The position numbers and the translations under genes were made by a program. The notes under the pieces are model-generated. The model was given only the letters and a program-made list of their open reading frames with translations. It made no database searches and was not told where the DNA came from. A stretch of DNA of 64,000 nucleotides from positions 1,567,598 through 1,631,597 of the forward strand of contig NZ_CP114779.1 of assembly GCF_027359375.1 (NCBI RefSeq), written 5' to 3'. Origin of the DNA: Prochlorococcus marinus str. MIT 0919. GTDB taxonomy: Bacteria; Cyanobacteriota; Cyanobacteriia; PCC-6307; Cyanobiaceae. Below are positions 9,271 through 9,750 of the stretch, in pieces. Position 1 is the first letter of the stretch. Every line of letters starts with the position of its first letter.

Positions 9271-9301
9271 TAAAAAAGCAAGCCCATAATAAAGACTTGC
9301 T
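9271..9301 (-). terminator. Rho-independent terminator of the LTYRG-repeat gene
   Basis: Read on the minus strand, AGCAAGTC and GGCTTGCT form an 8-bp stem (one G-U pair) with a 9-base loop, followed at once by TTTTTTATTT. It lies 24 bases after the stop of the gene at 9326-9493, a standard intrinsic terminator that closes the riboswitch-controlled transcription unit. Confidence 0.85.
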
Positions 9302-9325: not shown

Positions 9326-9493
9326 CTAGTTTTGATAGTTTACACCCCGATAAGTAAGAAGAGAATGCTCTTGGGCAGCCTCTTGCTTTCGGGTTGTGTA
9401 GACGTTGCGCCTATATGTCAACTCAAGTAATTCCTTCCGAGAAGGCCCCTTACTTTGAACATAGGCTTTGCCGCGATAAGTGAGAGTTGTCAT
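9326..9493 (-). CDS. LTYRG-repeat micro-protein (DUF4278-like)
   Basis: A 55-residue protein with three copies of an octapeptide: LTYRGKAY (4-11), LTYRRNVY (25-32) and LTYRGVNY (46-53), spaced exactly 21 residues apart. LTYRGxxY is the signature of cyanobacterial DUF4278, usually present once. I place the start at the ATG (9493), where M-TT-LTYRG matches family N-termini; an in-frame TTG at 9511 would give six more residues and has GGGGA 8 bases upstream, inside the riboswitch pseudoknot. No membrane segment or cysteine is present. It is preceded by a glutamine riboswitch and followed by a terminator, so it is a stand-alone regulated unit. Function unknown; a link to nitrogen status is inferred. 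Confidence 0.8.
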   Translation of the reverse strand: MTTLTYRGKAYVQSKGPSRKELLELTYRRNVYTTRKQEAAQEHSLLTYRGVNYQN

Positions 9494-9513
9494 GTACAGA
9501 GTCCGATTCAATG

Positions 9514-9573
9514 ACCAGGTCCCCGTTCCATGGCCTGGTTCGAACTTGCGCCCTGAAAATATCAGGGTGAACG
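9514..9573 (-). promoter_or_regulatory. Glutamine-II ('Downstream-peptide') riboswitch
   Basis: On the minus strand the element begins CGTTCACCCTGA and ends GGGGACCTGGT. P1 is CGTTC (9573-9569) with GAACG (9528-9524); P2 is CCCTGA (9567-9562) with TCAGGG (9556-9551); the conserved GCGCAAGT follows P2; and ACCAGG (9539-9534) pairs with CCTGGT (9519-9514) as the pseudoknot. This layout matches the glutamine-binding glnA/Downstream-peptide class, which in marine cyanobacteria precedes short ORFs. The pseudoknot 3' strand includes the only purine-rich SD-like sequence (GGGGA), so ligand binding could control translation. Whether glutamine turns expression on or off cannot be read from the sequence. 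Confidence 0.83.
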
Positions 9574-9577
9574 TTTT

Positions 9578-9591
9578 GTAGCATCCGCTAC
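9578..9591 (-). promoter_or_regulatory. NtcA-type palindrome GTA-N8-TAC
   Basis: GTAGCATCCGCTAC is an exact match to the GTA-N8-TAC consensus of the cyanobacterial nitrogen regulator NtcA. It lies 5 bases upstream of the riboswitch and overlaps a possible -10 element TATTGT (9595-9590, minus strand). A site over the -10/start region suits repression, as known for the gif genes, rather than activation. Binding is not proven and chance matches occur in a 64-kb window. Confidence 0.5.
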
Positions 9592-9750
9592 AATATTTAT
9601 TTTTGCCGAATTTCTTAGCCTTTTGTAGTTCGAGAGGATACAAAACACTGTATTTTCAGTTTTGGTTAAGATTTCCTCGTGAGGGTCTAAAGTAAAACTT
9701 GCAAGATAAAGCACGTTCTTCAAGATTCGAGCTTGACTTCGCATTGGTTC

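Follow-up and report, generated by a model that had tools for sequence, protein, structure and literature searches.

The window analysed here, a stretch of 64,000 nucleotides from Prochlorococcus marinus str. MIT 0919, carries on its minus strand what is very probably a monocistronic nitrogen-status gene under two layers of control, an NtcA-type operator at the start of transcription and a glutamine riboswitch in the leader. Support for this two-layer model comes from the covariance match to RF01704 and the profile match to DUF4278, from the operator statistics among relatives, from the coincidence of the operator with the published transcription start of a homologue, and from a predicted ligand-free fold that buries the Shine-Dalgarno region. 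The riboswitch class and its association with DUF4278 genes were already known; the locus itself is ordinary, and what it adds is modest.

A Glutamine-II aptamer in front of a DUF4278 gene

The original prediction had read the leader as a Glutamine-II (Downstream-peptide, or type 2 glutamine) aptamer and had proposed a covariance search as a check. In this search (cmscan, Rfam 15), the RF01704 model was covered in full (positions 1-60) at 68.5 bits, well over the gathering score of 33, which bears out the identity; the sole other Rfam match in the window is one tRNA. The elements of the aptamer, with helix names following the crystal structure (PMC6698751), are as follows.

9514 to 9576, minus strand: Glutamine-II riboswitch aptamer (RF01704), cmscan E 1.9e-14
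9573-9569 with 9528-9524, minus strand: pseudoknot PK, CGTTC/GAACG
9567-9562 with 9556-9551, minus strand: helix P1, CCCTGA/TCAGGG
9539-9534 with 9519-9514, minus strand: helix P2, ACCAGG/CCTGGT

The prediction had given no strand, and while all halves of its three helix pairs are present, their names had been swapped: CGTTC forms the PK, CCCTGA P1 and ACCAGG P2. The GCGCAAGT core that it pointed out is likewise there, but with one additional A relative to the model, which appears as an insertion in the cmscan alignment and follows GCGCA in the linker. Otherwise the copy shows nothing notable and shares with its class the sequence, the PK/P1/P2 fold, the position before a short ORF and the marine picocyanobacterial host. 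The link to short ORFs of marine cyanobacteria was correctly drawn and had already been published (PMC2864571, PMC6316151); in marine picocyanobacteria, the type 2 aptamer sits mainly before DUF4278 genes (PMC6316151). On the level of sequence, the locus is thereby confirmed as a genuine Glutamine-II aptamer, a textbook member of a described class, and selective L-glutamine binding has been demonstrated for other members (PMC6698751, PMC6316151).

Downstream of the aptamer lie two further features.

9326 to 9493, minus strand, ATG at 9493: gene for a 55-aa micro-protein with DUF4278 (Pfam PF14105)
9272 to 9300, minus strand: terminator-like hairpin and T6 run, MFE -10.7 kcal/mol, z -4.09

The ORF of 55 codons, which ends at 9326, encodes MTTLTYRGKAYVQSKGPSRKELLELTYRRNVYTTRKQEAAQEHSLLTYRGVNYQN, and its product is indeed the repeat micro-protein that had been claimed, with three YRGxxY-like repeats (MTTLTYRGKAYVQ...LTYRGVNYQN). 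It is less unexplained than had been stated, given that the Pfam profile for DUF4278 matches it at 34.4 bits against a curated cut-off of 25.3, while NCBIfam returned no match for the peptide. Two DUF4278 genes were found in the source genome, and they are the genes immediately downstream of its two highest-scoring Glutamine-II matches. As to the proposed complete unit of ORF, aptamer and terminator, the ORF and a hairpin with T6 are found, but because the hairpin at 9300-9272 is missing from the output of the consensus terminator scan, the terminator call rests on its fold and on inspection, by which it is a good candidate.

Spread and covariation among relatives

The source genome, a single contig of 1.72 Mb, has three Glutamine-II matches (72.7, 68.5 and 37.8 bits). 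When 60 genomes (our own and relatives) were searched, the class was present in 27 of the 37 genomes of the family, our own included, and in none of the 23 outside it. These 27 genomes yielded 62 aptamer loci, all of which were fetched and make up our comparative set. The PK reads CGTTC/GAACG in 55 of them and CGTTG/CAACG or CGTCC/GGACG in the remainder, i.e., the changes are compensatory. For P2, 33 distinct helices were seen, and 320 of 330 cells are paired, a count that is slightly flattering in that the best register was taken for each locus. Among relatives, PK and P2 thus hold their pairing by way of compensatory changes. In these marine picocyanobacterial 5' leaders, the ORF starts about 20 nt 3' of the aptamer.

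The downstream ORFs fall into three classes. Class A (17 of the 62 loci) has peptides of about 33 aa and two YRGxxY repeats, and class B (26 loci, the window copy included) peptides of 55-63 aa and three; across loci, the repeats are conserved and the spacers between them variable. Class C, with peptides of the type 'MNxLxLIRxxxKKAxRLHxAQL', follows about a third of the aptamers (19/62), an example being the minus-strand locus L003 (G000:C1:837348-837411). Five class C peptides were scanned against Pfam up to E 10: four gave no match, and one gave sub-threshold matches only. A search of solved structures, with the window peptide and a class C peptide as queries, found nothing at E up to 10. 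However, inspection showed that some class C members (L028, L041, L047, L049) also carry YRGxxY, which makes the class look like a diverged DUF4278 relative. A YDRSN motif had first suggested that class C peptides might be homologues of the glutamine-synthetase inactivating factor IF7, a candidate that we rejected on comparing profiles (hhalign probability 0.6%).

Two class C loci deserve separate mention. In the genome that we take as SS120 (G012), the class C gene at C1:1418933-1418984 (L061) has apparently lost its ATG, reading AAGAACACTC where relatives have ATGAACACTC. Genome G033 has two near-identical class C units about 6 kb apart (L058 and L060).

Among the closest described systems is Yfr6 of MED4 and SS120, with which the window gene shares the aptamer leader, the operator at the transcription start and a short YRG-repeat ORF that begins near nucleotide 97-99. 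At 33 aa and two repeats, the Yfr6 product is shorter than that of the window gene (55 aa, three repeats); the source genome has its own Yfr6-type copy at C1:66299-66359 (L001).

An NtcA-type operator at the probable transcription start

Two elements lie upstream of the aptamer.

9578 to 9591, minus strand: GTAGCGGATGCTAC, GTA-N8-TAC NtcA-type operator, inferred +1 to +14
9628 to 9642, minus strand: TGTATCCTCTCGAAC, upstream element with consensus TGTATC-N4-TGAAC, about 50 bp before the box

The window box GTAGCGGATGCTAC ends four bases from the CGTTC of the aptamer. A perfect GTA-N8-TAC was found within 45 nt upstream of the aptamer in 55 of the 62 loci, at distances of 3-23 nt; shuffling gave an expectation of 1.0, and a control region had 2. 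One locus without the box is L058. When the loci were anchored on the box, a TATAAT-like set of columns ended 6 nt upstream of it, which predicts that transcription starts at the box. This agrees with the RACE mapping of SS120 yfr6 by Axmann et al., who placed the RNA at complement 923780..924018 with a guanosine as its first base (PMC1242208): in G012 the aptamer lies at 923944-924002, and position 924018 is the first G of the box (locus L006). With the published start on the first box G, the box spans +1 to +14, and we infer that transcription of the window gene starts at 9591. This near-universal operator at +1 is one of the points that our comparison adds.

As an activator, NtcA would be expected to sit some 40 bp upstream of the start (PMC6316151); a location at +1 to +14 fits repression by NtcA instead. 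NtcA is reported to repress gif genes, with its site at -7.5 in the case of gifB, and in MED4 PMM1846 an NtcA motif accompanies the riboswitch (PMC6316151). Furthermore, Yfr6 RNA drops under nitrogen depletion (PMC1242208). The window sequence has what an NtcA-repressed promoter would have, a GTA-N8-TAC over the start-site region, and NtcA would accordingly be expected to bind and repress at this box.

The box is also transcribed, and an additional role as a 5' hairpin is therefore possible. Its inner bases read GTAGC-N4-GCTAC in most loci, and the inner G-C pairs are conserved to 84-93%, beyond GTA/TAC. In contrast, the glnA genes of these genomes have NtcA boxes of the form GTACTTATTGATAC, unlike GTAGC....GCTAC, and the gifA boxes of other cyanobacteria are mostly without the inner GC...GC pattern, so that part of the conservation of the box may serve the RNA. 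In line with this, two loci of one genome have a GTAG...CTAC inverted repeat with changed spacing (N9 in L050, N7 in L051), and L023, with GCAGC...GCTGC, retains the stem with changed NtcA bases; that a stem is kept in these three loci without the NtcA bases or spacing hints that the RNA stem itself may matter.

One could go further and take the palindrome to act chiefly in the RNA, as a hairpin at the 5' end by which the mRNA is protected or the aptamer helped to fold, with little or no part for NtcA. The transcription of the palindrome from its first base in SS120, the unusual conservation of its inner pairs and the three stem-keeping loci would all speak for this, but the outer GTA/TAC is perfect in the 55 loci noted above, and L003, L010, L012, L030 and L057, among others, break the inner pairs yet keep GTA/TAC. 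The reported NtcA repression of gif genes and the NtcA motif of PMM1846 likewise argue against it, and symmetric operators covary just as hairpins do. We therefore consider such a chiefly RNA-level role unlikely. A somewhat better, though still tentative, case can be made for an operator at +1 that does two jobs across this picocyanobacterial small-protein regulon, acting as an NtcA site in the DNA and as a 5' hairpin that caps the leader in the RNA.

The second upstream element, TGTATC-N4-TGAAC, recurs in 27 of the 55 anchored loci (the window and 26 others) at a constant offset of 47-50 bp upstream of the box; with shuffled sequence, 2.6 loci would have it at any position within 110 bp. It looks like a half-degenerate NtcA site, lies close to where activators classically bind and is perhaps an imperfect site for NtcA or a site for another activator. 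As a genome-wide regulon motif it was discarded, because one-mismatch matches in a genome scan were no commoner than those of a reversed control.

A predicted switch between linker and Shine-Dalgarno region

Two strands within the leader could pair with one another in the ligand-free state.

9540 to 9546, minus strand: linker strand AGUUCGA, proposed anti-Shine-Dalgarno strand, paired with 9500-9506 in the predicted ligand-free fold
9500 to 9506, minus strand: UCGGACU, presumed ribosome-binding region before the AUG

In the predicted fold of the free leader (from 9591), P1 is intact and the linker pairs with UCGGACU in a duplex of -7.7 kcal/mol, leaving UCGGACU with an unpaired probability of 0.01-0.07. 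Once the aptamer is held out of pairing, the predicted probability is mostly about 0.3-0.95, though the folding energy models ignore both pseudoknot and ligand. Comparison among class B loci gave a linker/SD pairing of -5.1 kcal/mol versus -2.7 kcal/mol with shuffled SD regions. When linkers and SD regions were swapped within this class, 117 of 5000 swaps were as low (p ~0.02, a signal that shared ancestry inflates), whereas swaps within class A (p ~0.2) and class C (p ~0.66) gave no signal; the test was done without the P2 strand, whose inclusion biases the result. Covariation between linker and SD is hence suggestive, within class B only. Pairing of the two in the ligand-free state is a plausible ON mechanism as judged from these models. 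It resembles the proposal by Huang et al. in which the ligand induces the PK and thereby releases a ribosome-binding site that had been occluded (PMC6698751), and glutamine binding has been reported to raise expression for a Prochlorococcus DP aptamer (PMC6316151).

What the small protein might do

DUF4278 makes up the N-terminal part of the glutamine-synthetase inactivating factor IF17 (PMC6316151). How glutamine synthetase is controlled in these organisms, which are abundant in the ocean, has been described as unclear (PMC6316151). One possibility, also raised in a review (PMC6316151), is that the 55-aa protein is the true glutamine-synthetase inactivating factor of picocyanobacteria. The basic, Arg/Lys-rich character of the peptides is in keeping with it, as is the nitrogen logic, in that Synechocystis gifB, which encodes IF17, likewise combines a DUF4278 protein, a glutamine-ON leader and an NtcA repression site over the core promoter. 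However, gifB has a type 1 aptamer where the window gene has type 2, and IF17 has an extra IF7-like inhibitory domain that is absent from the window protein, while its DUF4278 part is dispensable for inhibition and adds stability (PMC6316151). An IF7 profile, built from loci found with an IF7 sequence that was itself validated by matches in 41 of 59 class genomes, found nothing in the source genome; 36 of the 37 family genomes were without the domain, with one marginal fragment in G036 (22 bits), versus hits in 18 of the 23 genomes outside the family. With the IF7 domain missing, the protein may still inhibit glutamine synthetase, but its domain content lends this no support, and we regard it as rather doubtful that the protein is the true inactivating factor.

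Another counterpart, compared by description only, is MED4 PMM1846, likewise a small DUF4278 protein (7 kDa) with a glutamine riboswitch and an NtcA motif (PMC6316151). As a separate observation, type 1 matches (RF01739) adjoin DUF4278 in the same family (G003:C37, G004:C62, G010:C44, G011:C1:27834, G013:C20, G022:C4), those in G004, G010:C44 and G013 being below the cut-off; in G003, G011, G013 and G022, type 1 matches coexist with the type 2 riboswitch.

An older suggestion, put forward for MED4 Yfr6 (PMC2518516) and likewise concerning Yfr14, was that such RNAs are bifunctional regulatory RNAs or toxin-antitoxin partners. For the window RNA this seems very improbable, since it is the repeats of the peptide, and not the variable spacers between them, that are conserved, the leader has since been recognised as a glutamine riboswitch (PMC6316151), and Yfr6 falls with nitrogen depletion as noted above.

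Implications for nitrogen control in picocyanobacteria

According to the two-layer model, minus-strand transcription would start around 9591, within the NtcA-type operator or at its edge, and for this reason active NtcA (under nitrogen starvation and high 2-oxoglutarate) should block it. With ample nitrogen, NtcA would leave and the leader would be made. At low glutamine, the linker AGUUCGA would pair with UCGGACU and hide the ribosome-binding site, whereas L-glutamine would stabilise the pseudoknot, recruit the linker strand and free that site, such that the 55-aa DUF4278 protein could be made. Most likely, this protein would then bind a partner in nitrogen assimilation, be it glutamine synthetase or another.

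With this locus, a riboswitch class that was already known gains a clean example; the added interest rests on the near-universal operator at +1, on the proposed linker/SD switch and on the class C peptides. If the operator does have a dual role, signals from 2-oxoglutarate and glutamine would be read by adjacent, co-evolving elements, in a regulon that in part encodes peptides of a family lacking a Pfam match. The comparative data make it possible to test whether, throughout Prochlorococcus and marine Synechococcus, a single promoter-leader unit is controlled by NtcA and glutamine in series, and which roles the DUF4278 micro-proteins and the second type of peptide may have in clades that lack IF7 and IF17.
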